Below are positions 13,701 through 63,342 of a DNA stretch of 64,000 nt, piece by piece (the first letter of the stretch is position 1; the number at the start of each line of letters is the position of its first letter). Under the pieces are notes generated by a model. That model saw nothing but the letters and a program-made list of their open reading frames with translations, was not told where the DNA came from and ran no database searches. Source of the DNA: Sorghum bicolor. Taxonomy: Eukaryota > Streptophyta > Magnoliopsida > Poales > Poaceae. Location: the NCBI RefSeq assembly GCF_000003195.3, contig NC_012877.2, positions 21,833,737-21,897,736 on the forward strand, in the 5' to 3' direction. The position numbers were made by a program, and so were the translations under genes.

Positions 13701-13800
13701 NNNNNNNNNNNNNNNNNNNNNNNNNNNNNNNNNNNNNNNNNNNNNNNNNNNNNNNNNNNNNNNNNNNNNNNNNNNNNNNNNNNNNNNNNNNNNNNNNNNN
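13701..13800. other. Assembly gap, 100 N
   Basis: Exactly 100 N, a usual placeholder for a gap of unknown length. Left is family A pol; right is an unrelated Tat element. The join and distance are therefore not established. Confidence 0.99.
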
Positions 13801-39107: not shown

Positions 39108-39278
39108 ATGAGTCAATTTCGAAGATGTTCTATAGGCTTCAAGTCATCATCAATGACCTCAAAGGCCTTGGTGAGAAAGTAAAGGATGAGGACATCATTC
39201 ACAAGTTCTTAATGTGCTTGCCCAAGAGGTTCAAGACATTGAGAACCATCATCTTTAGAGGTGGATTGACCGGTGTAT
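39108..39278 (+). pseudogene. Sire/Maximus-type copia gag, piece b (element S1)
   Basis: Encodes SKMFYRLQVIINDLKGLGEK and IIHKFLMCLPKRFKTLRTII, typical Sire-lineage gag. Frame joins piece a on the left; the right end is cut by the - strand Tekay element, and the frame resumes at 53799. Confidence 0.9.
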
Positions 39279-42200
39279 TGTAACAGAACCGACCAAATTA
39301 TAAGAGATTAAGCCTAATAGTGACCATTTGCATAGTCGAACCATCACGCTTAAGCCCATATAATCCCGGTAGTCCGTGAAATCTCGAAGGATTTCAGACC
39401 ACACATCGCATACAGCCAAGATCGTAATAAGTTTAGCGGCCGCCATCCACAAGTACATCCAGATTACAACATTCATGAAACACATCGGAGTACTTAAGTT
39501 ATTACAAACCAAGTTCTTCAAGTAGCGGAAGCTTCATAGTTCGAAATTACAACACACACGATAAGTCTGATACAGTGCCATAGTTTGGTCATTCCCACAA
39601 AAGCAAAGGAAGAGACGGAGTGACCATCGCCCTTGGTCTAGTCATCACCCATAGCTGGGTACAGACAGAGCATGCAATAACCATAGTACATTTGACCATC
39701 TGCAAAACAACATGGGAATAGGACCCTGAGTACGAGAAAGTACTAAGCTAGACTTACCCGTCATAAACTTAAAATAAAGACTCATCAAGGATCATGAAGG
39801 CTATTTAGTGGGGTAGCTGACAACCATTTTGCAAAGACCGCAAGGTTTTATTACCCTAACCTACATAAATCTTTTCTTCTTTTAATCTGCTCAAGTTGAA
39901 AGTATCATTACCTATTATCTAGGTTTGCTCCTGTGCTATTACAAGCAAGTATGAGACTATGATAGTACCTCATCATAGCATTTCTTAAACCATTCATCAT
40001 TATAACCCAAGTGTTCCATAGTCCTTACTACGAGGACGAAGCTCATGTCAAGTGCTCACTATCCAGGAGCGATGGCGATTCGAATCGATTTCTAACCAGC
40101 TGGCGAATTTATTCCCCACACAAACCACACTCACTGATCAAGTGAGCTACAGGTCACCGTGTTGCACTATCCAGGACCAATTCGCGGGTTCGACAGGCAC
40201 CGCCCGTACCCGAGGACCGTTCCGGCGACCGAGGTATCCAAGGTATACCAAGGTTGCGCGCCGCGCCCTCATCGTTCTCCTCAACCATCACCAATACAGC
40301 GCGTACATCGAGCCGATTCCCGGCCCGGATAGTGCTCAGGCTTCGCGGTCGGAACGACTTATCCTTCCAGCTAAGTGTGGGGCATGCGTTCAACATGACA
40401 AGAGGGCCGTCAACGATCGGTCCTTAATCGACACAGGCAGGGGCACTATGGTCAACCCACCATAAGACCCTGCCCGGTCTCCAAATTCATTCCATAATTG
40501 GTCATCCTTTTCCCAAGCAACCAATGCTTAATCAAGCAGGTATCCACCTATATCTCGTAGGTGACAGGAAATCACCCGACTTCTACCAGACTAAGCAAGC
40601 TAAGCATAGACTCCGCGCCTATCTACATAGGACAAGGTAGATAAACGAGTAGGAATAACAAGGAGTACATATGCAGCAACGGTATCAGGCAACTCCTACC
40701 ACTTAAATGCAGTAGTAGAACAAGTATAGTGCATCACATAAGTTAGCGAGAATAGGGAGACTTAGAATGCTCCGGGGCTTGCCTTTCTCAAACGTGCTGG
40801 GTCGGTGATCCGGACACTCCTGCAGTTCCTCTCCGGGTTCCGGTGCTTCCGGAGGTTCCTGCTCCAGAGTCTCCTCTGGCTCCTCGGGTCCCACCTCGTT
40901 CTCCTGCGAGCCTGTATGATGCATGTGTGCTCATGAGTGGAGTGTGAGATGCCCGAATGGATGCTTGTATGAGAAGGTACCAAAGGACCATGTCATGATG
41001 CATGGATGATACACTTGGTCATGCTCATCACAAGGTATGCAACATCATCCAAGAACAGGCACTTGGATTAAACATCTATTGCATTCTCTTTTACAATTAT
41101 TTTTCAAATGCAATCAGTAACCCACAGGATGCATCAAAGATACACCAAACCCAACTTATTCCATTCAACCTAGATATGCAACCATTCATAATTTTCTTTA
41201 TTCATTTCTAGGCTCATTAAAATCACATGCAATTCTGTTCATCAATAAATTCCAGAAAAATTACAGGAGACTACTAGCTAATCATAAAGTCTACTGTAAA
41301 ATTTTCATAATTTTGTGGTTACTTATTTTGAGCCACAAAAATCACAAGATTAATTGATAAGGTAAGTAAAATCACTCTACTGTGATATAAGTGTCAAACA
41401 ACAGATTTCATATTTTTACAATTTGTCTAACATTATAAGAAACACCCACAAAATTTTCCAGATTTATTGCATGACCCATTTAATTATTAAAAATCATAAA
41501 GCACTGCCATGCAAGCATTTAAATTACCATAAATTCATTTATTCATCAAATAATATGTACCCACATTTTCCCAGTGAGCAAACACACATGCAAAGCCAAC
41601 AAATCAAGTTTCACATTTTTCTGAGCCATATTTTATTTACTATGCATTTTCCTAGTTTAACAAAATCATGGATAAAATATATTCACACAGAAAAGTTACT
41701 CCAACATGACATGCAATTACACCAAACTGTAGATCTGGAAATATAGAGCACACCAAAATTTATTTCATTCAATTTGGAGCTGTAGAACTCAAGATATAGA
41801 TTTTACAAACTTTAAATCAATTTCTGGAAAACACTTTTTCAAGAAAACCGACGAAAAAGGCTACGCACACCCAGATCTACACCCACCGGGGTACCCCTGC
41901 GACTGACAGTGGGTCCCCGACCCCACCAGTCAGCGAGACCGAGAGGGAGCTCACCTCCGACGAGCGGATTTCGCCGGCGGTGAGGTCTCCGGCCACGGGG
42001 TGAGCACCAACGTGCTCCCCGCAGCAAGACGCACCCAGCGGTACCCTTGGATCGACCAGAGGACGGCCGGAACACCTCCGGCGAGCATGCATGGCGGCAC
42101 GGCGGCGCTGCTCGCCGTGGCCAGGCTGCTCCGGCGCGGTAGAGCGTGCGCAAACGCCTCTCCGAGCTTCCTCACCTTCCTACCGACCTAGCGCAACAGA

Positions 42201-43198
42201 GAACGAGCGAAAAGAGGCAGGGAAACGCTAGATCCGTCGCGGCGGAGTACTCCGGCGAGCTCGGGGTAACTCCGGCGAGCGATTCACGGCACTCGACGGA
42301 CTCTCACCTCGGTAGAACGTTCGCACGAGCTTACCCTAGCGACGGCGAGTGCCCTGGTGCTCTCGGCGTCGAGCTTGAGGCTCTGGTGCGGCCGGCGACG
42401 AGCGGCGGAGCTCTCTCCGGCAATGGCGCGCGGAGGAGCGGCTGCTGCTGCGCGGTGCGAGCGGAGGAGGAAGGAGAAGGAGGGCGCGGGGGAGACAGGA
42501 TGGAGGGAGTGGCCTGGGAGCCTGCGCCGGCGTCCCGACCAGGGGGGTTGGAGGCCGGCCGCGGCGCGTCCAACGCCGGCGTACGGCCGCCACGTGGCCG
42601 GCGCCGGGTGGGGCAAGGCGGGCGCCGCGCGCGCGGGAGAGAGGGGAGGGGGAGCGGGCCGCGCTGCCCAGCTGGGCCAGAAGGGAGGCGGGTCGGCCCA
42701 GCAGCGCCTGCCCCCTTTCTCCTTTTTTTTGAAATTCTTTTCTCAAATTCTTTCTAAATTCATTTGGACCAATTTAAAATCATTTTCACCTCTTGCTCCC
42801 AAAAACAAAGTTGTTCCAAAACAAAAACTCTACAACTTTGCTTTAACAAGCAAGACAAAATTCCAAACAGAATTTGAATTACAAGTTAAAACTCAGTTCT
42901 AGGTTTTAAATAAATTCTTTTTGGATATTTTTGTATAAATTCCATTTCTCAATTTCCATAGCTCCAAAAATTGCACAAAAATATTCTAAATTCTTCTTAC
43001 ACATAAAGCAACCTAATTTGAATATTTCACAATTTTAGAAGCAAGCATCATATTTTTAGCATATTTAAACTCATGAAGTGAAGCACATCAAATCATAATT
43101 TGAGAAGAGTGTCATGCTCATGATGCTTATGCTTGATGGGAATGCTTATGCATGACTTTGATGAGACTAAGTGCATGCTTAACACCTAGGGTGTTACA
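39279..43198 (-). repeat. 3' LTR of the Tekay-like element
   Basis: Element-sense start TGTAACACCCTAGG (at 43198), end GGTTCTGTTACA (at 39279). GC-rich part about 41840-42720; GKPR frame 40703-40924; splice-flanked hairpin about 39705-39755, with one stem arm mutated (GTACTA). Confidence 0.95.
40703..40924 (-). other. Acidic small reading frame in LTR (GKPRSILSLP type)
   Basis: 73 codons, ATG start, Glu/Pro-rich with EKGKPRSILSLPI and ALYLF near the end. Aligns with the frame in the family A LTR (6012-6272). The second copy is 51303-51524. No known protein recognised. Confidence 0.35.
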
Positions 43199-43212
43199 GC
43201 CCTTCCCCCCTT
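43199..43212 (-). other. Polypurine tract of the Tekay-like element
   Basis: Element sense AAGGGGGGAAGGGC just before the LTR start. Confidence 0.85.
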
Positions 43213-43221
43213 AGGGAAATC

Positions 43222-46200
43222 TCATCCCGAGATTTTTGGGGTTACTAACCATTTCTTATGAAATTTTGGATAAACTGTTTTTAAGTAATCCTCTGTTTCC
43301 CAAGTGGCATCCCTATCGTCATGATGACTCCACACCACCTTGTATGTTCGAACAACTCTGTTTCGGGTTACTCGCTCCTTGGTATCCACAATCCCCACTG
43401 GCTGCTCTTTGTACTCTAGGTCTGCTTTTATCTTGATTCCTCGAGGTTCAATTCTTTGCTCCGGTACTTTCAGACATTTCCGCAGTTGAGACACATGGAA
43501 GACCGGAAAGATCGAGCTCATCTCTTCAGGTAACTGAATCTTGTAGGCCACTGGGCCTTTCCTTTCTAGCACTTGGTATGGTCCCACATATCTGGGTGCA
43601 AGCTTGCTTCGAACTCGGAAACGTTGAATTTTCTTCATTGGCGTAACCTTGAGATACACATAGTCGCCTACTTTGAACTCAAGCGGCCTTCTCCTCTTGT
43701 CAGCATAACTCTTCTGTCGTGATTGCGCTACTTGCATATGTTGCTGTATAATCTGCACCTTTTTCTTGGCATCATTCACAAAGTCGATACCATAGTATCT
43801 TCTTTCACCAGGTTCCACCCAGTTTAACGGAGTTCGACATCTCCGCCCATACAAAGCTTCGAACGGGGCCATCTTGATGCTCTCTTGATAACTATTATTG
43901 TATGAGAACTCAGCCAAAGGTAACCATGATTCCCACGATCCCTTGGATGATAGCACACAGGCCCTCAGCATATCTTCTAACACTTGGTTTAGCCTCTCTG
44001 TTTGGCCTGAAGTCTGGGGATGATACGCTGTGCTTCTTATCAGACTGGTCCCCAAACTCTTATGCATGCGCTCCCAGAAGTGAGCAGTGAACTGCGGTCC
44101 TCTATCCGATATGATGGTTTTGGGGATACCATGCAACTTGACGATCTCAGCCATATATATATCAGCATACTCGGGAGGTCTGTATGTGTTCTTGACTGGA
44201 ATGAAATGAGCCGACTTGGTTAATCGATCTATGATTACCCAAATCGAGTCATTCCCCTTCCTGGTTGTCGGTAAGCCGGTGATAAAGTCAATACTGACCT
44301 CTTCCCATTTCCACTCTGGAACTGATAACGGTTGTAACAGACCTGCAGGTTTCATATGGATGGCCTTAACTCTGCAACATGTGTCACAACGGGCCACATA
44401 AGCGGCTATTTCTTTCTTCATCATGGTCCACCAAAAGTGGGGCCTTAGATCTTGATACATTTTGCTGCTGCTAGGATGAATAGAAAGCTTAGAGAGATGG
44501 GCTTCATCCATGATGCGATTCTTCAACTCCCGATCTTTCGGGACCACTAACCGCTGTTGAAACCACAGTACCCCCTTCTCATCAACCCGAAACTGAGTCT
44601 TTGGGTCATCTTTGATCTTCTCTTTGATGTGGAAAATACCCTTGTCTGTTTTCTGACCTTCAATGACTTGACTCTCGTGTGAACAACTGAGTTGTATATG
44701 ACATAAGAGCTCAGGATGCATAAGATTGAATCCATCTTCAAACAATGGTTGCACCACTTGATAGTGCGGTTTACGACTCAACGCATCTGCTACCACATTA
44801 GCCTTGCCTGGATGATAGTGAACCTCCAGATCATAGTCCTTGATTAACTCTAACCACCGTCGTTGCCTCATATTCAGCTCGGACTGAGTGAAGATGTTCT
44901 TCAAACTCTTGTGATCGGTGTAGATGTGACACTTATTTCCTAGCAGATAATGTCTCCAAATCTTCAAGGCATGCACCACTGCTGCTAACTCGAGGTCGTG
45001 CGTTGGGTAATTGACTTCATGCTTTCTCAGCTGTCGGGAAGCATAAGCTATCACCCTGCCATCTTGCATCAACACACATCCCAGGCCACTCTTCGATGCG
45101 TCACAAAACACATCAAAAGGCTTCTCTATATTGGGTTGCGCCAGAACGGGGGCAGTGGTTAGCAACTTTCGCAAGGTGCGGAAGGCTAACTCACACCCTT
45201 CCGTCCAGACAAACTTATGATCCTTTTGTAGCAAACTTGTCATTGGCTTAGCAATCTTGGAGAAGTCAGGTATGAAGCGACGATAATACCCGGCCAGACC
45301 AAGAAAACTTCTAACTTCCGATACAGAAGTTGGTGCCTTCCAGTCCATGACTTCCTGCACTTTTGATGGATCCACAGCAATTCCTTCTTCAGACAGAATG
45401 TGCCCTAGGAAAGGAACTTTCTTCAACCAGAACTCACACTTGCTGAACTTGGCATATAACTGGTGCTCTCGTAATCGTGTTAGCACGATTCTCAGATGTT
45501 CGGCGTGATCTTGCTCATTTTCTGAATACACCAGGATATCATCGATAAACACCACAACAAACTTATCCAATTCTGGCATAAAGGCTGAATTCATCAGATA
45601 CGTAAAGTATGCAGGAGCATTTGTCAACCCAAAGGACATGACAAGATACTCATACAACCCATATCTGGTGGAAAAAGCAGTCTTCGGGATATCTTGCGGA
45701 CGAATCTTGATTTGGTGATACCCAGATCTCAAATCTATCTTAGAAAACACTCTGGCCTTGGATAACTGATCAAACAGGATATCAATCCTTGGCAGGGGAT
45801 ACTTATTCTTGATCGTCACTGCATTAAGTGGACGATAGTCCACGCACATGCGCAACGACTGATCCTTCTTTTTCACAAACAACGCTGGACAACCCCATTC
45901 CGACGAGCTTGGCCGGATGAACCCTTTTTCTAGTAACTCCTTCAGTTGCTTCTTCAACTCTGCGAGTTCGTTTGGTGGCATCCGGTACGGCCTTCTAGAT
46001 ATTGGTGTTGTACCTGGTATCAACTCGATTGCAAACTCTACCTCCCTATCTGGGGGAAGTCCTGGTAACTCCTCGGGAAACACATCAGGGAACTCGCATA
46101 CTACGGGTATGTGTTCTAGGGGAACTACCTGTACTGCACACGAAAGACTGGCGAAGTCCAAACGCCGGGGTAACTTGACCTGAAACACACCCTTCCCTTG

Positions 46201-47712
46201 CGGCTCTCTGAGGGAAAGGGTTCTATTCCCAACATCTATAACTGTGCCCCAGTCAGTCATCTTGTTCATTCCAATGATGACATCCAAAACCAGTCCTGGC
46301 ATGACCACAAGGTTTACACGAAACCTCCGGCCACTGATATCCAAAGTAACTCCTATTACCGTTTTATTAGTCAACACATCGGCTCCGGCTGAGCTGATGC
46401 GATAGCCATAACCTAACTCAGTAACTGGCTGATCATGCTTTTGTGCAAATGCTTGGCTCATGAATGAATGCGATGATCCAGAATCAAACAAAACAACTGC
46501 GAGATGTTGGTTGACAGGAAACATACCAGCTGTCACCGGTTCTCCTTCCGGGATCTCCTCAATCGAGGTATGGTGCACACGAGCTGGATAGGTTGGCTGC
46601 TGCCTCTTGGGGTAGGGACATTCCTTAGCAAAGTGCCCCATCTTGTGGCAGTTATAGCACGGACCCTTGGGCGCATTGTTGACGGCAGGTGCTGCAGCTT
46701 GAATTGCCTTTGGCTTGGCAGGAGCTATCGCCACCTTGTACGGCTTCTGCTGGGTTGGATGCCCGGTGTTCCTTCTCTGCGGCGGTCGGAACTTAGCACC
46801 TGGGGCAGGAGGACGATACTGCTGTCGCCCTGTCACTGGTGCCCTGGACTGAGATGATCCTGCTTCAAAAGCCCTTTTACGTGACTTGGATGCACTGTAG
46901 TTGTTGTTATTGTTCTCTTGGGTCAGACAGTCACTGATATAGGCATTGAAAGTAGCCCTGGCCCCTGTACCCATGGTCTTCAGCATCTTTGGATTCAAGC
47001 CTCTCTGGAAACTAGCAATCTTCTTAGCCTCCGTGTTCACAAACTCAGGGGCATAGCGAGCGAGATTGTTGAAAGCGTGTAGATACTCCTTCACAGACTT
47101 CGTCCCTTGGGACAGCCTTATGAACTCCCCAACCTTCATTTCAACCACACCAGGAGGAATGTAATTTCCCCGGAAAGCGGTGGTGAAGCGGTTCCAGGTG
47201 ATTGGTGTCCCCTCTGGGTAGGTGGTACGGTGATGGGACCACCAAATCCCAGCAGGTCCTTGCAACTGATGTGCCGCATACTCAGCCTTGAGTTCTTCTG
47301 TCATTCGGAGAAGACGAAACTTCTGCTCCATGGTGTTGATCCACTCATCTACTTCGAGTGGTTCCAAGGCCTCCTTAAAGATTGGTGGCTTGGTATCCAT
47401 GAAGTCCTTGAACGAACTGTACTGGTTGACCTCCCGGCCACCGTGATTATCCCCACGACGGGTGTTGTCAGCTATGTTGCGCAAAGCTTCTTCCATGTTG
47501 CGCTGCATCTGTTCCATGTTGCGTTGGCTCCCCAGAAACTGCGTGAAAAACACATCCGCAGTGTACGGGGGAGGCGGTGGTGGGGGCGGTGTTGGTGCTC
47601 TGTCCTCATTCCGTTGAGCCCCACCTCCGGATGTACCTGCTCCAAGGCCCGGGTTGCTGTTACCCCCGCCACGTGTTTGCACCATCTGCTTATGCCAATG
47701 ATAAGCAATCAT
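43222..47712 (-). CDS. Gag-Pol polyprotein of Tekay-like chromovirus
   Basis: One uninterrupted frame of 1496 codons. The likely start is the second Met (ATG at 47685, reading MVQTRGGG) because it follows a CAG acceptor-like junction and matches the gag start of family A. Domains by residue from 47712: Pro-rich N-terminus (about 40-50), gag core with [15 protein letters not shown] (about 95), CCHC knuckle [14 protein letters not shown] (about 350), aspartic protease [11 protein letters not shown] (about 405), RT with VDYRPLN and FIDDILVYS (about 600-730), RNase H FDVFCDAS and TDHKSL (about 867-935), HHCC (about 1070-1115), integrase core with DFITGLP, SDRGPQF and GQTERLNQ (Asp, Asp, Glu; about 1141, 1204, 1238), and a chromodomain-like end with YKVVWSHH and ATWETEDYL (about 1440-1476). 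All catalytic residues are present. It does replication, processing and integration; the chromodomain is known to bias integration to heterochromatin in this group. Confidence 0.97.
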
Positions 47713-48008
47713 TAGGAGTTGCCATCAACGGTAGAAAATGTGTAGAATCGTGCCATACTGATTTTACTGAGGGAATAAATTCACACAATAAACAAAGGCA
47801 CAACAACTCATCATCCACGCACAACATCACTAACAGATTACTTAACATTCACGTAGCAAGGTTTGCATACATCCAACTTGCCAGCATACATACACTGGAC
47901 TTTCAGCATTAACTCATAAAGTCTTACACAGCCCAGATCCAAAAGTACACGACATGCCATGCAACATACATCACAAAAGAGGAAGGACTAGCTCTAGAGC
48001 CCTAGCAT
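47713..48008 (-). other. Spacer between ORF0 and gag-pol
   Basis: About 300 bases without a gene. On the - strand the region ends in GGCATAAGCAG directly before ATGGTGC, an acceptor-like junction. Confidence 0.5.
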
Positions 48009-49052
48009 CTACTCGCTATGGTCACTGTCCATGCCGGAACCATCCTCATCTTCATCACCACTAGCAGCTGCTCCTATCTCGAGATCCGCGTCCATCTCGT
48101 CCTCAGAGTCTAGCTCAGCTGCTCCAGGCAGGTGGTGAGGGTGGAGCTGGTTATGCAGCTGGTGGATCTCCTCATGCAAGTTCTCATTGTACTCCTCAGC
48201 ATTAGCTAGCTGCTGCTCTAGCTCTAGCTGTCGGGCCCTCAAAGTGTCCTCCTCGTGCCAGGCTTCATTCCTCTGTCCAAGCACATGGACTAGCATGCGC
48301 TCGCAGTTCCTGTGAGCAGTAGTCACCCTGTCCTTCTGCTCCCGCACTGCAAGCAGGTCCTGACACAGCTCACTGTTCTTCTGGACCGCCTGGTCTCTCT
48401 CTCTGGTCACACGGGCCAACTCTGCCTGTAGCCTCTCAACCTCAGAGTCAAACTCACGCTGCAACTGACGCTTCTCATCCTGGACGGTGAGAAGAGACCC
48501 GGACAAGCGACCCAAACAACGCTCCAGGCCTCCATAGGTCTTCATCAACGCGTACATGGCACTCATAGCTGCACTGTCACTGTGCTGGTCCTCATCCGCA
48601 CTCCTCTCTAGAGCATTCACCTCGGACTGATCCCACACCGAAGTGTAAGGGTCACCCCGGGGAAACACCCCAGCGAAGGCGTGGGCCAGCTCCTGTGGAA
48701 ACCTCTCCATGAGGTCCCTCAAAACTGCGAAAGCTGCCCTGCTGGCACCGTGGAAAGGCGTGACACCTCGGGACTCGTACACCCAACCGCCCCAAGCAGG
48801 GTCTCCTCCACTGGTAGGGACAACTGCCTCGATCCCCACCAGGGTCTCGTCACCAAGCGGCTCCTTATCCCAATAGTAGCAAGGCTCCCTTCCTTTGGGA
48901 TACCCCATCGAACTGAGCACCCTCCAAAGCAAAGTGGGCATCCCAAACTCCTCCAGGAACTTGCTCTTATGTCGCGAGCTCCTAGCTGCCAACGGATGGC
49001 GAGGGGCCCGCCCACCAGTGGACTTGCGAGCGGTGAGCCTAGTGCGTGCCAT
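48009..49052 (-). CDS. ORF0 with histone H3-tail-like N-terminus, coiled coil and acidic tail
   Basis: 347 codons from ATG at 49052 (preceded by GCAGCAG). The first residues read MARTRLTARKSTGGRAPR, against histone H3 MARTKQTARKSTGGKAPR. Over H3 positions 1-21, 16 are identical, including T3, T6, R8, K9, S10, T11 and R17. K4 and K14 are Arg, K18 is His. A later SRHKS resembles the ARKS around K27. There is no histone fold after it: residue 31 onward reads KFLEEFGMPTLLWRVL, shared with family A ORF0, then a Gly/Trp-containing globular part (to about 150), a long coiled coil (about 185-300) and an acidic tail (DSEDEMDADLE ... DEDEDGSGMDSDHSE). The gene lies between primer site and gag on the coding strand of an intact element. 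Function unknown. Inference: it may imitate the H3K9 region for chromatin readers or writers, including the element's own chromodomain. Confidence 0.85.
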   Translation of the reverse strand: MARTRLTARKSTGGRAPRHPLAARSSRHKSKFLEEFGMPTLLWRVLSSMGYPKGREPCYYWDKEPLGDETLVGIEAVVPTSGGDPAWGGWVYESRGVTPFHGASRAAFAVLRDLMERFPQELAHAFAGVFPRGDPYTSVWDQSEVNALERSADEDQHSDSAAMSAMYALMKTYGGLERCLGRLSGSLLTVQDEKRQLQREFDSEVERLQAELARVTRERDQAVQKNSELCQDLLAVREQKDRVTTAHRNCERMLVHVLGQRNEAWHEEDTLRARQLELEQQLANAEEYNENLHEEIHQLHNQLHPHHLPGAAELDSEDEMDADLEIGAAASGDEDEDGSGMDSDHSE

Positions 49053-49861
49053 CTGCTGCAAATGGAATACCGTGGGTAAGAGTGAGGATTACCTTTAATT
49101 ATTTTATTTAGAATTGGGACAGATTAAATTAAGGGGGAAAGTAAGCAATGATATGGAATGAACATGATGTATGCACGAACTTACGATCTCACAAACCTAG
49201 AAACAAGGGTTAACACTAAGCGGTATATGCGGTGGCATACAACGTTCTCTCATAATGTAACTAGCGTTCTAAGCGGGAACGTGGTTAGGGTACCTGCAGA
49301 AAACTCATTTCAGCCCACCCACAGTATGATCGTGCAGAACAAAATTTAAAACTATGCACTTCACATACGCAGACACCCGTCCATGCATGTGACGTGTCAC
49401 TACCCACATCATCGCCCTAATGACGGCATCGCCTCTCAGGACAGAATTCCCAGCATGCGGCACTGTTCCCGAGACACACCAAACATGTGTGCATGACACA
49501 GTACCTAACAACACTCCCCTAGACCGGCAGTGTATCCGATCATGCTCTCACAGCTCCCACTTACCGTGGCGTAGAGGAAAAAGGGATCCATACATTACCA
49601 CTCAAATGAATGGCACTCATACTATTGCACGCCGTATGAGCGACGAAAATAGAAATATGATGCATTCACCCCCAAGTCAGTACTTCCTAGCCACCTTAGA
49701 GTCCTTAACTGGGCATAAAGGATATGACCATGGCACACTAGATAATTTTCCCAAAACTTAGTTTAACACCTTGATCATTATTAATTAATTAATAAATCTT
49801 TTACTAAACCGGTTTAGATTTTTTTGTTTAAAACGTACTTATGAACAGTAACTCGCTAAAC
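49053..49861 (-). other. 5' leader of the Tekay-like element
   Basis: Untranslated part between primer site and ORF0. Contains GGTAAGTGG (donor-like, about 49557-49565) next to a 20-base motif (49537-49556) and a 16-base motif (49510-49525), both identical to the family A leader, and a TTTTCTGCAGGTACC stretch (about 49290-49304) also shared. No supported gene. Confidence 0.6.
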
Positions 49862-49878
49862 CTTGCTCCGATGCCAGC
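49862..49878 (-). other. Primer binding site, initiator Met tRNA type
   Basis: Element sense GCTGGCATCGGAGCAAG, immediately inside the 5' LTR. Confidence 0.8.
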
Positions 49879-52800
49879 TGTAACAGAACCGACCAAATTA
49901 TAAGAGATTAAGCCTAATAGTGACCATTTGCATAGTTGAACCATCACGCTTAAGCCCATATAATCCCGGTAGTCCGTGAAATCTCGAAGGATTTCAAACC
50001 ACGCATCGCATACAGCCAAGATCGTAATAAGTTTAGCGGCCGCCATCCACAAGTACATCCAGATTACAACATTCATGAAACACATCGGAGTACTTAAGTT
50101 ATTACAAACCAAGTTCTTCAAGTAGCGGAAGCTTCATAGTTCGAAATTACAACACACACGATAAGTCTGATACAGTGCCATAGTTCGGTCATTCCCACAA
50201 AAGCAAAGGAAGAGACGGAGTGACCATCGCCCTTGGTCTAGTCATCACCCATAGCTGGGTACAGACAGAGGATGCAATAACCATAGTACATTTGACCATT
50301 TGCAAAACAACATGGGAATAGGACCCTGAGTACGAGAAGGTACTCAGCTAGACTTACCCGTCATAAACTTAAAATAAAGACTCATCAAGGATCATGAAGG
50401 CTATTTAGTGGGGTAGCTGACAACCATTTTGCAAAGACCGCAAGGTTTTATTACCCTAACCTACATAAATCTTTTCTTCTTTTAATCTGCTCAAGTTGAA
50501 AGTATCATTACCTATTATCTAGGTTTGCTCCTGTGCTATTACAAGCAAGTATGAGACTATGATAGTACCTCATCATAGCATTTCTTAAACCATTCATCAT
50601 TATAACCCAAGTGTTCCATAGTCCTTACTACGAGGACGAAGCTCATGTCAAGTGCTCACTATCCAGGAGCGATGGCGATTCGAATCGATTTCTAACCAGC
50701 TGGCGAATTTATTCCCCACACAAACCACACTCACTGATCAAGTGAGCTACAGGTCACCGTGTTGCACTATCCAAGACCAATTCGCGGGTTCGACAGGCAC
50801 CGCCCGTACCCGAGGACCGTTCCGGCGACCGAGGTATCCAAGGTATACCAAGGTTGCGCGCCGCGCCCTCGTCGTTCTCCTCAACCATCACCAATACAGC
50901 GCGTACATCGGGCCGATTCCCGGCCCGGATAGTGCTCACGCTTCGCGGTCGGAACGACTTATCCTTCCAGCTAAGTGTGGGGCATGCGTTCAACATGACA
51001 AGAGGGCCGTCAACGATCGGTCCTTAATCGACACAGGCAGGGGCACTATGGTCAACCCACCATAAGACCCTGCCCGGTCTCCAAATTCATTCCACAATTG
51101 GTCATCCTTTTCCCAAGCAACCAATGCTTAATCAAGCAGGTATCCACCTATATCTCGCAGGTGACAGGAAATCACCCGACTTCTACCGGACTAAGCAAGC
51201 TAAGCATAGACTCCGCGCCTATCTACATAGGACAAGGTAGATAAACGAGTAGGAATAACAAGGAGTACATATGCAGCAACGGTATCAGGCAACTCCTACC
51301 ACTTAAATGCAGTAGTAGAACAAGTATAGTGCATCACATAAGTTAGCGAGAATAGGGAGACTTAGAATGCTCCGGGGCTTGCCTTTCTCAAACGTGCTGG
51401 GTCGGTGATCCGGACACTCCTGCAGTTCCTCTCCGGGTTCCGGTGCTTCCGGAGGTTCCTGCTCCAGAGTCTCCTCTGGCTCCTCGGGTCCCACCTCGTT
51501 CTCCTGCGAGCCTGTATGATGCATGTGTGCTCATGAGTGGAGTGTGAGATGCCCGAATGGATGCTTGTATGAGAAGGTACCAAAGGACCATGTCATGATG
51601 CATGGATGATACACTTGGTCATGCTCATCACAAGGTATGCAACATCATCCAAGAACAGGCACTTGGATTAAACATCTATTGCATTCTCTTTTACAATTAT
51701 TTTTCAAATGCAATCAGTAACCCACAGGATGCTTCAAAGATACACCAAACCCAACTTATTCCATTCAACCTAGATATGCAACCATTCATAATTTTCTTTA
51801 TTCATTTCTAGGCTCATTAAAATCACATGCAATTCTGTTCATCAATAAATTCCAGAAAAATTACAGGAGACTACTAGCTAATCATAAAGTCTACTGTAAA
51901 ATTTTCATAATTTTGTGGTTACTTATTTTGAGCCACAAAAATCACAAGATTAATTGATAAGGTAAGTAAAATCACTCTACCGTGATATAAGTGTCAAACA
52001 ACAGATTTCATATTTTTACAATTTGTCTAACATCATAAGAAACACCCACAAAATTTTCCAGATTTATTGCATGACCCATTTAATTATTAAAAATCATAAA
52101 GCACTGCCATGCAAGCATTTAAATTACCATAAATTCATTTATTCATCAAATAATATGTACCCACATTTTCCCAGTGAGCAAACACACATGCAAAGCCAAC
52201 AAATCAAGTTTCACATTTTTCTGAGCCATATTTTATTTACTATGCATTTTCCAAGTTTAACAAAATCATGGATAAAATATATTCACACAGAAAAGTTACT
52301 CCAACATGACATGCAATTACATCAAACTGTAGATCTGGAAATATAGAGCACACCAAAATTTATTTCATTCAATTTGGAGCTGTAGAACTCAAGATATAGA
52401 TTTTACAAACTTTAAATCAATTTCTGGAAAACACTTTTTCAAGAAAACCGACGAAAAAGGCTACGCACACCCAGATCTACACCCACCGGGGTACCCCTGC
52501 GACTGACAGTGGGTCCCCGACCCCACCAGTCAGCGAGACCGAGAGGGAGCTCACCTCCGACGAGCGGATTTCGCCGGCGGTGAGGTCTCCGGCCACGGGG
52601 TGAGGACCAACGTGCTCCTCGCAGCAAGACGCACCCAGCGGTACCCTTGGATCGACCAGAGGACGGCCGGAACACCTCCGGCGAGCATGCATGGCGGCAC
52701 GGCGGCGCTGCTCGCCGTGGCCAGGCTGCTCCGGCGCGGTAGAGCGTGCGCAAACGCCTCTCCGAGCTTCCTCACCTTCCTACCGACCTAGCGCAACAGA

Positions 52801-53798
52801 GAACGAGCGAAAAGAGGCAGGGAAACGCTAGATCCGTCGCGGCGGAGTACTCCGGCGAGCTCGGGGTAACTCCGGCGAGCGATTCACGGCACTCGACGGA
52901 CTCTCACCTCGGTAGAACGTTCGCACGAGCTTACCCTAGCGACGGCGAGTGCCCTGGTGCTCTCGGCGTCGAGCTTGAGGCTCTGGTGCGGCCGGCGACG
53001 AGCGGCGGAGCTCTCTCCGGCAATGGCGCGCGGAGGAGCGGCTGCTGCTGCGCGGTGCGAGCGGAGGAGGAAGGAGAAGGAGGGCGCGGGGGAGACAGGA
53101 TGGAGGGAGTGGCCTGGGAGCCTGCGCCGGCGTCCCGACCAGGGGGGTTGGAGGCCGGCCGCGGCGCGTCCAACGCCGGCGTACGGCCGCCACGTGGCCG
53201 GCGCCGGGTGGGGCAAGGCGGGCGCCGCGCGCGCGGGAGAGAGGGGAGGGGGAGCGGGCCGCGCTGCCCAGCTGGGCCAGAAGGGAGGCGGGTCGGCCCA
53301 GCAGCGCCTGCCCCCTTTCTCCTTTTTTTTGAAATTCTTTTCTCAAATTCTTTCTAAATTCATTTGGACCAATTTAAAATCATTTTCACCTCTTGCTCCC
53401 AAAAACAAAGTTGTTCCAAAACAAAAACTCTACAACTTTGCTTTAACAAGCAAGACAAAATTCCAAACAGAATTTGAATTACAAGTTAAAACTCAGTTCT
53501 AGGTTTTAAACAAATTCTTTTTGGATATTTTTGTATAAATTCCATTTCTCAATTTCCATAGCTCCAAAAACTGCTCAAAAATATTCTAAATTCTTCTTAC
53601 ACATAAAGCAACCTAATTTGAATATTTCACAATTTTAGAAGCAAGTATCATATTTTTAGCATATTTTAACTCATGAAGTGAAGCACATCAAATCATAATT
53701 TGAGAAGAGTGTCATGCTCATGATGCTTATGCTTGATGGGAATGCTTATGCATGACTTTGATGAGACTAAGTGCATGCTTAACACCTAGGGTGTTACA
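49879..53798 (-). repeat. 5' LTR of the Tekay-like element
   Basis: 3920 bp; element-sense start at 53798 and end at 49879. Differs from 39279-43198 at about 27 positions. The hairpin TGAGTAC/GTACTCA (about 50327-50345) is intact here. GKPR frame at 51303-51524. Confidence 0.95.
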
Positions 53799-54680
53799 TG
53801 TATCTCCCAATGAGGTACTTGGAGATGTCATGACCAAAGATCAATACAATGACAATCATGATGATGAGATCATGAAGGAGGATGATGATGACAAGAGGAA
53901 GAAGAGTGTAGCATTCAAAGCTAACTCTTCATCCAAGAGCAAGAACAAGGGCAAGGCCATGAAGGAAGAATCAAGTGATGAGGAGTGCTCCAATGATGAT
54001 AGTGATGATGAAGCACTAGCACTCTTCGACCGCAAGTTTGGCAAGATGAAGAAGAAGAAGGGCTATCACACAAGAAAGAGAAGAGATCACTTCAAGAACA
54101 AGGAGCATGTGTGGCTATGCTACAAGTGCAAGAGCCTCGATCATATTGTGGCAGATTGTCCTTACAATAGTGACAATGATGAGCATGACAAGAAGAACAA
54201 GAAGGAGAAGAAAGAAAAGAAAGAGAAGAAGATGGTCTTCAAGAAGAAGAAGAAGGGTGGATCCTATGTTGTGACATGGGATGGTGATGCTTCTTTGGAT
54301 GGTGATTCTAGTGATGATGACAAAGCATCCAAGAAGAAGGCGCTTGCAAGCATTGCTATCAACAAGCCATCACTCTTTGACACTCCTTCATGCTTCATGG
54401 CTAAGGGCGAGAAGGTACAATATGATGAGATTGAAAGTGAAAGTGAAAATGAATATGATAGTGATAGTGATAATGATGATGAACTCACTAATGAACAACT
54501 CATGGACATGCTAGAACAAGTCGATCACTTATTCAATCTAAAAACAAGAAGTGCAAAGAATTGGCTAAGAAGCTAAAAGCTCTTGAGCAATCCTTTGATG
54601 AGGTCAATGCTAGTCATGAGAGGCTAGTGGAAGCCCATGAGAAGCTTGGCAAAGCTCACACCAAGCTTGAGAAAGCTCAC
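53799..54680 (+). pseudogene. Sire/Maximus-type copia gag, piece c (element S1)
   Basis: Reads SPNEVLGDVMTKDQY, a Lys/Asp/Glu-rich run, the CCHC knuckle CYKCKSLDHIVADC (about 54118-54160), SYVVTWDGDAS, KKKALASIAINKPSLFDTPS and a very acidic stretch. The frame stops at 54574-54576, but the coiled-coil continuation (KALEQSFDEVNASHERLVEA) lies in the neighbouring frame, so a 1-base indel occurred near 54533. The right end is cut at 54680 by the - strand Athila-like element. Confidence 0.9.
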
Positions 54681-61183: not shown

Positions 61184-62624
61184 CAAACTCCTTGTTGTTA
61201 GAAGAGAACAAGGAAAAGGTTGTCGTATCATGTGATGTGGGCACACCATGTGACTTAATTAAGGAATCACCCAACCCACCTATTGTTGTTGCCACTAACT
61301 CCTGTTGTAGGTCTTCATCCACCACCGCCAACTCTACCTCTACTTCTAGTGATGGTATCACATGTGATGCTTCACTAAAGGTTGAGAATGAGACTCTCAG
61401 GAGAGAGGTGGATGAGCTCACTCACGCCCTAGGCAAAGCCTATGGTGGTGAGGCCCACTTGCTAAAGTGCTTGGGTAGCCAAAGGTTTTCTCTCAACAAA
61501 TAGGGATTAGGCTATAACCCCAAGAAAGGCAAGGCGGCCTTTGTAACTCACAAGCCTAGCTTTGTGAAGTGCAATGGTCGGTTTTGCAACAAATGCAAGC
61601 AAGTTGGGCACCTAGAGCTTAATTGCGATAAAATGAACAAGAACAAGAAAAATGCTAATGTATCTTACATTCCATTTGATTCTTGTTATGTGCTTACCAA
61701 GGGTGAGAAGGGTGTGCATGCTAAGTTTGTTGGTACACCAATTGTGGGTCCAAAGAAGAAGGCCATTTGGGTACCAAAGAGCTTAGTCACTAATCTCCAA
61801 GGACCCAAACAATTATGGGTACCTAAGAAACATTGATTTGTTTTGTAGGTAAACTATAAAGCTGGAGGAAGGCATTGGGTGCTTGATAGTGGGTGCACAC
61901 AACACATGACCAGTGATTCAAGAATGTTCAATGCAATCAATCCAAATGATGACAATGGTGTTGATAGTATCACATTTGGTGACAATGGCAAAGGCAAGGT
62001 CAAAGGGCTTGGTAAAATTGCTATATCTAATGACTTGAGCATTTCCAATGTGCTAATAGTATAGAGCTTGAACTTCAACTTGCTATCCGTAGCTCAACTT
62101 TGTGATCTTGGTTTCAAATACATATTTTGAGTTGATGATGTAGAGATCATAAGTGTAGATGGCTCCAACTTGATATTCAAAGGCTTTAGATATGAGAATC
62201 TATACTTGGATGATTTCAATGCTAGTGAAGCTCAATTATCAACATGCTTGCTCACTAAATCAAGCATGGGTTGGTTATGGCATAGAAGGCTTGGTCATGT
62301 TGGAATAAAACAATAAAACAAGTTAGTCAAGCATTATCTTGTTAGAGGCTCGAAAGATGTTACATTTGAGAAAGACAAGCTTTGTAGTGCATGTCAAGCC
62401 AGAAAGCAAGTTGGCAACACTCATCCAAAGAAGAGCATCATGAGTACATGCAAGGCATTTGAGTTGTTGCACATGGACTTATTTGGACCAACCACATACA
62501 CAAGCATTTGTGGAAAAAAATATGGATTTGTGATAGTGGATGATTTCACAAGATACACATGCGTATTCTTTTTTAGTGACAAGAGTGATGCTTTTGCAAC
62601 CATCAAATCATTTGTCAAAAGAAT
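61184..62624 (+). pseudogene. Sire/Maximus-type copia gag end, protease and integrase start, piece d (element S1)
   Basis: Coiled-coil gag segment (NETLRREVDELTHALGKAY), in-frame TAG at 61501-61503, a second knuckle CNKCKQVGHLELNC (about 61585-61628), IWVPKSLVTNLQGPKQLWVP, TGA and TAG before pol, protease HWVLDSGCTQHMTSD (about 61875-61918), then an integrase zinc domain (HRRLGHVG ... LCSACQARK) and the start of the catalytic core (LLHMDLFGP, VIVDDFTRYT). Several further stops interrupt pol (for example after SNVLIV at 62061-62064 and near 62315). Cut at 62624 by the T2 LTR before the catalytic Glu. An old, dead copy that served as landing ground for the others. Confidence 0.9.
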
Positions 62625-63342
62625 TGTTGATGCAAAAGTGGATCTGCAAACACAAAAGGCTAATACCCAATTCAACTTAAGGCGTGCCAGCCGATTTGAC
62701 CTTACAACCGACAAAGGTGATAACTCGAATACTTTGGTCCCAACAACAGCGATATGCCCGGATGCCACAGCCAAGAGGTATTCACGCGGAACTTGAGAAC
62801 TCGCCGAGGTTAACTCAATGAATTCCTAAGAACTCGTAAGGAAAATGAAAATATGCAAGTTGACGAAGTCGTCGAAAAAGTAGATGCTGGAATAGATTTA
62901 AAACTTGTGTTTGATTGATTGTGATTGTCTTCTTACATCGCTACTAGGTCTATATTTATACCATGTCCCAAAGAGCTACAACCAGGTACGACTAGAATTC
63001 TATTTCCAAATTAAACAGAATCCGTATACAAACAAACTCTAATAACTATGAAAATCATTAGTTTATCCATCCTAGGTAATCGGCACGCTACCACTGTTTC
63101 CTCGACAGTTCCTATACCCTTCTCCACCATCATCGGCACCTCATCCTCCATCGGCATCGGCAACTGTTAACATCAGCCATCGTTATAGATCAATCATTAT
63201 TCCTAGACTCGGTCATATTCTGCTGCTCTATCATCGGCATCATAACCCATTGGTAACTCCTCCGTCAACCAGTCATTACTTTTTCACCTCCCGATCCAAG
63301 TTCCACTATCTGTCCGGATACATGTAAAAAACGGTATCAACA
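62625..63342 (-). repeat. LTR of second Tat element T2
   Basis: Inverted relative to T1. On the + strand it begins TGTTGATGCAAAAG and ends GGTATCAACA; in element sense TGTTGATACC...GCATCAACA. Matches 30420-31131. TATA-like TATAAATATA in element sense at 62951-62960. The element continues past the window. Confidence 0.88.

Follow-up and report, generated by a model that had tools for sequence, protein, structure and literature searches.

What would a plant retrotransposon gain from a protein that begins like histone H3? Plants silence transposons via methylation of lysine 9 of H3 (H3K9) and small RNAs, and the question is raised by ORF0, an open reading frame of a long terminal repeat (LTR) retrotransposon in a 64-kb stretch of Sorghum bicolor DNA (NC_012877.2, positions 21,833,737 to 21,897,736; the whole stretch analyzed is called the window below). 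A first-pass annotation had noted that ORF0 opens with an imitation of the H3 tail that keeps K9, and had suggested that the protein could recruit or titrate the H3K9 machinery or be bound by the element's own integrase chromodomain. With a little less than even confidence, we read the N-terminus of ORF0 as a selected, K9-centered mimic of the H3 tail that would engage host writers and readers of H3K9 methylation and counteract silencing near the element.

Read in register after the initial Met, 16 of 21 residues of ORF0 are identical to H3 1-21, as the first-pass annotation had counted. The residues it had listed as kept (T3, T6, R8, K9, S10, T11 and R17) or replaced (K4 and K14 by Arg, K18 by His) were the same in our translation of the window copy; residue 19 is Pro. 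The likeness exceeds chance. Sequences drawn from the composition of ORF0 matched H3 at no more than 8 of 21 positions in 200,000 draws, and shuffles of its first 30 residues at no more than 10 of 21 in 200,000 trials. Further, a phmmer search of the PDB sequences with the whole of ORF0 ranked histone H3 chains at the top (best E 5.4e-4, residues 1-24). The annotation had also stated that no histone fold follows the tail; indeed, Pfam identified no histone family in ORF0 at E values up to 1, no such fold was found after the tail, and the domain modeled there resembles a double-stranded RNA-binding domain (dsRBD).

The tail could have been confined to this one copy, and the genome excludes it. 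The genome searched comprises 709,120,108 bases (846 contigs, ten of them large). Of 3361 first-look candidates, 117 were scored as ORF0 matches; all 117 start at residue 1, and 13 of them contain internal stops. A query with the related protein P0012 gave the same start in 123 of 123 genome matches. From the 117 we analyzed 40 copies, 20 with high ranks in the list and 20 ranked lower, a sample in which broken copies are over-represented because 12 of the 13 stop-containing copies are in it. The first codon is ATG in each of the 40. The window tail, or the window tail with R at position 18, is present in 37, and the other three have one or two further differences, one of them with a stop within codons 1-30. 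Twenty further copies came from the P0012 query (19 copies, 90.6-99.0% identical to the window ORF0) and from a query with P0033 (one copy, picked for a match reaching residue 1); K9 is Lys in all 20 and the adjacent S10 is Ser in 19. We then assembled 59 copies (56 distinct) from the window copy, a diverged copy found with a histone query (L043), 19 of the 20 further copies and 38 of the 40, leaving out a copy with an internal deletion (L103) and two of the 40 with an indel. All 59 have Lys at K9 and Thr at T6 and T11, while S10 and R8 are kept in 58 each. At position 4, 58 copies have Arg and one has Lys; at position 14, 58 have Arg and one has Pro; at position 18, 40 have His and 19 have Arg. 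When P0012, P0010 and the short-class protein P0033 served as genome queries, with only the best candidates scored, the best identities were 53, 57 and 62%, respectively; no close member of their classes was among the best-scored candidates, which does not imply absence.

Tails of this kind also recur in diverged relatives. We collected 128 related proteins, the window ORF0 (P0001) included, largely from metagenome contigs and with one relative from Miscanthus floridulus (P0043); for one of the searches, 120 of 350 matches were listed. In 23 of them, the window's own among these, at least 9 of 22 residues equal H3 within the first 70 residues, and the others are fragments or have an internal Met as their first residue. 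A7, K9, S10, G13, P16 and L20 are present in 23 of 23, T6 in 22 and R8 in 19; at position 11, 15 proteins have Ala and eight have Thr. K14, K18 and K23 are common H3 acetylation sites whose loss leaves K9, and all three are replaced in every one of the 23 proteins (position 14 is Arg in 22 and Gln in one; position 18, His in 22 and Arg in one; position 23, Arg in 20, His in two and Cys in one). Of the same proteins, 20 keep Lys at position 4 and three have Arg there, so the earlier statement that ORF0 offers only the K9 site holds for the window family but not for all ORF0s. The N-terminus of P0078, MARTKQTARKSTGG, equals H3 1-13 exactly. These counts do not represent independent events, because many of the proteins are near-identical members of a short class that has the tail, the coil and the acidic end without the central domain. 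The distinct tail-bearing classes are this one and four long ones (P0001, P0012, P0078 and P0086), among which tail columns 1-21 are identical at 15-19 of 21 positions, the linker at 7-9 of 14-15 and the next domain at 51-66 of 93 (55-71%). No relatives were found in the viral contig, genome contig and plasmid collections searched, a search with the tail alone (residues 1-45) returned one partial relative among 4 candidates and contributed no new protein, and no rice-named match occurred among 42 matches or among the 120 of 350 listed. The copy with the internal deletion, L103 (C4:27028477-27029100, matched by the P0033 query at C4:27028537), bears the tail of P0079, a protein with an H3-like tail and a coiled coil but without most of the dsRBD-like domain, and its layout is much like that of the separate short class.

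AlphaFold2 models of the window ORF0 and of sub-class P0078 both place after the tail an a-b-b-b-a fold that is dsRBD-like by structure comparison, the nearest structures being DRB7.2 and the second dsRBD of DCL4 (8igd, 9k9p; 16-17% identity). This fold, which lies ahead of the coiled coil, had escaped the first-pass annotation. The long helix that follows has a mean predicted local distance difference test (pLDDT) score above 90 for residues 181 to 300. The tail and the acidic end are both low-confidence, and they differ in net charge (+9 for residues 2-30 versus -16 for the C-terminal segment).

In the mechanism that we propose, removal of the Met would expose a disordered H3-like tail, and the coiled coil would display two or more such tails, making the protein multivalent. 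Host SUVH-type enzymes would methylate K9, with no counter-acetylation possible at the lost sites, and readers or writers of dimethylated H3K9 (H3K9me2) such as ADCP1, CMT and SUVH proteins would bind next. The H3K9 machinery would then be occupied or diverted near the element's own RNA and DNA, not titrated genome-wide, and the dsRBD-like part would contact RNA-silencing proteins or element RNA. ADCP1 holds the H3 peptide via R2, K4 and K9me2, and not via A7, R8 or S10 (PMC6318295). Since R2, a basic residue at position 4 and K9 are all present in ORF0, readers of H3K9me2 are a fitting target. To judge from its sequence, the chromodomain of the element itself is an unlikely partner. Its alignments keep the middle Trp of the aromatic cage and have His at the third cage position, with the first cage position outside the alignments. 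In plants, the first cage residue is missing from type II chromodomains and the last usually is too; for Tekay, the literature describes the first and the third as missing (PMC6317226; PMC3350952). The earlier observation of a K9-centered imitation of the H3 tail is thus supported by its recurrence in other copies and sub-classes, while the proposal of binding to the element's own chromodomain was weakened by the cage residues. It is also conceivable, if unlikely, that ORF0 is a two-headed antagonist, with a non-acetylatable, K9-methylated tail occupying H3K9me2 readers or writers and the coil joining it to a DRB7.2/DCL4-like domain that enters the small-RNA machinery; "be the mark" would then have replaced, in grass elements of the Tekay clade, the chromodomain's lost "read the mark".

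Several observations weigh against an anti-silencing mimic. No ORF0 could come anywhere near the abundance of histone H3, which makes simple titration implausible and a local effect more likely; on this stoichiometry we rejected genome-wide titration of H3K9 enzymes as the main mechanism. The contact of ADCP1 with K4, which is Arg in the window ORF0, may also speak against it. Although the fold predicted for the ORF0 domain is like that of DRB7.2 and the DCL4 domain, it lacks KKxAK, the canonical dsRNA-binding motif at the second helix of dsRBDs. The motif was absent from all 17 dsRBD-like domains caught by pattern, and the domain of P0001 has a net charge of -3, so binding of dsRNA is doubtful. 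Foldseek returned no match at E <= 0.001 and had unrelated folds among its top rows; the function of the domain cannot be inferred from the modeled fold alone. A lineage without the tail could have been missed, because the 23 proteins were picked by their likeness to H3, and could also escape among genome copies ranked by protein likeness. Nor do the variants single out the tail. Those shared by at least two of the 59 copies number 2 non-synonymous and 7 synonymous in codons 2-30, a per-site ratio (0.11) no lower than in the rest of ORF0 (47 and 119; 0.11), and 2 and 3 in codons 2-22 alone (0.30). With singletons included, the ratio rises to 0.55 in codons 2-30 (18 and 13) and 1.11 in codons 2-22 (15 and 6) versus 0.27 in the rest (194 and 204), so that the comparison of the first codons with the remainder, as proposed in the first-pass annotation, gave equality for shared variants in codons 2-30 and a higher ratio for the tail once singletons entered. 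Few variants fall in codons 2-22, and a choice of copies by rank of protein likeness reduces non-synonymous counts; in a set of 39 sequences, codons 2-30 had ratios of 0.10 (shared) and 0.25 (all variants). We read these sequence comparisons as suggesting that transposing lineages hold the tail under about the same constraint as the remainder of ORF0 while dead single copies decay. The shared variants speak against neutral evolution of the tail in other copies, and its retention across sub-classes provides a firmer argument for selection than the variant ratios.

The main rival of the anti-silencing reading is tethering, in which multivalent host readers of H3K9me2 would hold the K9-methylated tail of ORF0, and ORF0 would dock the complex of the element at heterochromatin in place of the mark-reading function that the type II chromodomain has lost. 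Such a role, which we consider doubtful, would suit the cage residues missing from type II chromodomains, for which the literature identifies no partner (PMC6317226; PMC3350952), and the three tandem Agenet domains of ADCP1, each of which reads H3K9me2 (PMC6318295). It would also be consistent with the position of 74 of 114 placed copies (the 117 minus 3 on small contigs) in the central half of the chromosomes (P 0.002 versus an even spread), but this bias is modest and may reflect copy survival. Moreover, sunflower Tekay groups without the reading frame published as the 5' aORF also carry type II chromodomains (PMC11728184), and a link between ORF0 and the integrase is hypothetical. The positive charge of the tail and the predicted nuclear location of the 5' aORF proteins of grass Tekay elements (PMC11728184) could instead indicate a merely basic stretch derived from H3 that serves nuclear import or binds nucleic acid. 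We regard this as quite unlikely, since an import signal needs neither the non-basic A7, S10, G13, P16 and L20, kept in 23 of 23 proteins, nor a K9 that is never Arg. The opposite charges of the two ends, and a short class that retains just the tail, the coil and the acidic end, would also accommodate a tail that folds back onto the acidic C-terminus or competes with histones bound by it. Charge pairing requires neither the exact K9-S10 context nor G12-G13, however, and the low-confidence ends of the model neither show nor exclude a contact; we hold this explanation to be very unlikely.

The tail could also be a captured host exon drifting without function. Among the host H3 genes found, eight read in one piece and three are H3.3-type genes (L039, L040 and L041) with one coding exon that spans exactly M1-K23, the stretch best imitated by ORF0; the start of a fourth candidate (L042) was not found by the pattern used. 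One H3.3-type gene has an inferred splice acceptor directly at its ATG, much as ORF0 has TTTGCAG 3 nt before its own, and, as noted above, singletons in codons 2-22 show no shortage of non-synonymous changes. The codons, however, retain no clear memory of H3. At the residues in common, ORF0 has 8 of 16 codons identical to the best of four host genes (expected 4.5, P 0.043) and 5, 6 and 6 of 16 to the others, and the tail of L043, which is nearer to H3, has at best 9 of 18 (expected 5.2, P 0.042) and 7-8 with the others. Because synonymous codon sharing is near chance, it is the amino acids and not the DNA that have been preserved, and we rejected a recent capture of a host H3 exon; the likeness would stem from an old capture or have been shaped by selection. 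The persistence of the amino acids across sub-classes and the preponderance of synonymous changes among shared variants in codons 2-30 make functionless drift exceedingly unlikely. Upstream of the start codon, the 10-base acceptor end TTTGCAGCAG is exact in 39 of 40 copies but in 11 of the 20 further copies. The donor GGTAAGTG is present at eight of eight loci examined, 509 nt upstream in the window copy and 507-510 nt upstream in the other seven, and is not present in L043. The unspliced leader contains 21 ATGs, of which 14 fall within the putative intron and the other 7 lie farther upstream; the leader may be spliced.

ORF0s in this position have been described before. Retrosat2, RIRE3, RIRE8 and FRetro3 resemble the window element in carrying an ORF0 between the 5' LTR and gag-pol and in having LTRs of ~3 kb or more, and the start of the window LTR, TGTAACACCC, matches the published start, TGTCACACCC, at 9 of 10 positions (PMC3485330). 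The ORF0s of Retrosat2 and its grass homologs were called divergent and suggested to be metabolic enzymes (PMC3485330), a role for which Pfam gave no support; the main text of that report does not use the word histone, and the likeness to the window ORF0 is one of description only. Similarly, the Tekay 5' aORFs of maize and of sorghum Sb7 share with the window ORF0 the position, a predicted nuclear location and a long C-terminal helix, Sb7 being likened to the window family by description only (PMC11728184). A weak Foldseek match of these proteins to a DRBM protein led to the suggestion that they modulate RNA silencing (PMC11728184), and the dsRBD-like part is, therefore, not new. The main text of this paper does not use the word histone either; the H3 tail, its pattern of lysines and the existence of a short class are what the present analysis adds to it. 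In PMC7264820, neither "ORF0" nor "histone" occurs. Within the open-licence literature searched, no mention of an H3 tail was found for this ORF0, and the tail appears to be new. Viral histone mimics offer a parallel, as foreign proteins said to carry an H3K9-like ARKS motif (PMC10208167; one case rebutted, PMC10833455). Theirs is a short motif, whereas the likeness of ORF0 runs in register from residue 1 for ~21 residues, at a true N-terminus and in a plant transposon. The VANC proteins of VANDAL transposons are transposon-encoded and counteract epigenetic silencing, as we propose for ORF0, but belong to another element class and are called sequence-specific, with no H3 mimicry mentioned in the available text (PMC10398659); this comparison, too, is by description only. 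Here, a multicopy transposon protein keeps K9, has K14, K18 and K23 replaced, and adjoins a fold used by plant RNA-silencing proteins. To our knowledge, ORF0 would be the most extended histone-tail mimic in a mobile element. If our reading is true, a protein in print without a settled function gains a testable one, with a bearing on the partner that was lost or replaced by the type II chromodomains of plants, and its tail may serve as a bait for the silencing machinery of the host, or as a handle on it.

The gag, protease, reverse transcriptase (RT), RNase H and integrase regions follow one another in a single reading frame, which is the arrangement of Ty3/gypsy chromoviruses (Table 1). The integrase core (Pfam rve) scored 24.0 bits, under its cut-off of 32.6, and the zinc-binding part of the integrase scored over its own. 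Compared with PDB sequences, the chromodomain matched first an uncharacterized protein (2m2l, E 1.5e-4) and second the Clr4 chromodomain (E 0.0076). Both traits of Retrosat2/RIRE3/RIRE8 elements, long LTRs (3920 bp) and an ORF0 upstream of gag-pol, are present, and we infer the clade name, a grass Tekay/Retrosat2-type chromovirus. The Kimura two-parameter (K2P) distance between the LTRs corresponds to ~0.27 My at a substitution rate of 1.3e-8 per site per year.

Table 1. Features of the retrotransposon and of its ORF0, in window positions.
Feature	Position	Strand	Evidence or remark
LTR retrotransposon, 14.5 kb	39279-53798	-	within the 64-kb window
5' LTR	49879..53798	-	99.31% identity to 3' LTR across 3920 bp; K2P 0.0069
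3' LTR	39279..43198	-	LTR pair comparison
Primer binding site TGGCATCGGAGCAAGG	49861..49876	-	after 5' LTR; presumably initiator-Met-like
Purine-rich tract	43199..43215	-	precedes 3' LTR
Target-site duplication TGTAT, left	39274..39278	.	
Target-site duplication TGTAT, right	53799..53803	.	duplication of 5 bp
ORF0, 347 aa + stop	48009..49052	-	between 5' LTR and gag-pol
H3-tail-like N-terminus of ORF0, codons 1-30, MARTRLTARKSTGGRAPRHPLAARSSRHKS	48963..49052	-	translation
Codon AAG at the H3 K9 equivalent	49023..49025	-	copies and related proteins
dsRBD-like domain, ORF0 residues 40-123, a-b-b-b-a	48684..48935	-	AlphaFold2 and structure comparison
Long helix, predicted coiled coil, ORF0 residues 159-303	48144..48578	-	AlphaFold2
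Acidic C-terminal segment, ORF0 residues 304-347	48012..48143	-	net charge -16
Putative leader intron (CG/GTAAGTGG ... TTTGCAG/CAG ATG)	49056..49564	-	splicing inferred
gag-pol ORF, 1496 aa	43222..47712	-	Pfam: gag, CCHC, protease, RT, RNase H, integrase
Weak type II-like chromodomain, integrase end	43252..43374	-	Pfam Chromo 16.8 bits, cut-off 25.1

Elsewhere in the window, two pairs of long direct repeats (31-2477/11237-13683, 99.9% identical; 4123-7685/21254-24828, 98.5% identical) are probably the LTRs of other elements, and a gap of 100 N lies at 13701-13800, as judged from a break in the self-match there and from the 100 N that the window contains. To the right of the element, a CCHC-bearing, gag-like reading frame (53752-54576) and an integrase-like one (62440-62796), both judged by eye, are probably pieces of another retrotransposon in nested insertions. 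Elsewhere in the genome, same-strand pairs of ORF0 copies lie 10.6-10.7 kb apart (C7:8369431/8380029, C7:10709517/10720149 and C9:52439654/52450367), a spacing close to the length of the element minus one LTR. These pairs are probably tandem elements with a common LTR, which are a known kind (PMC11899658).
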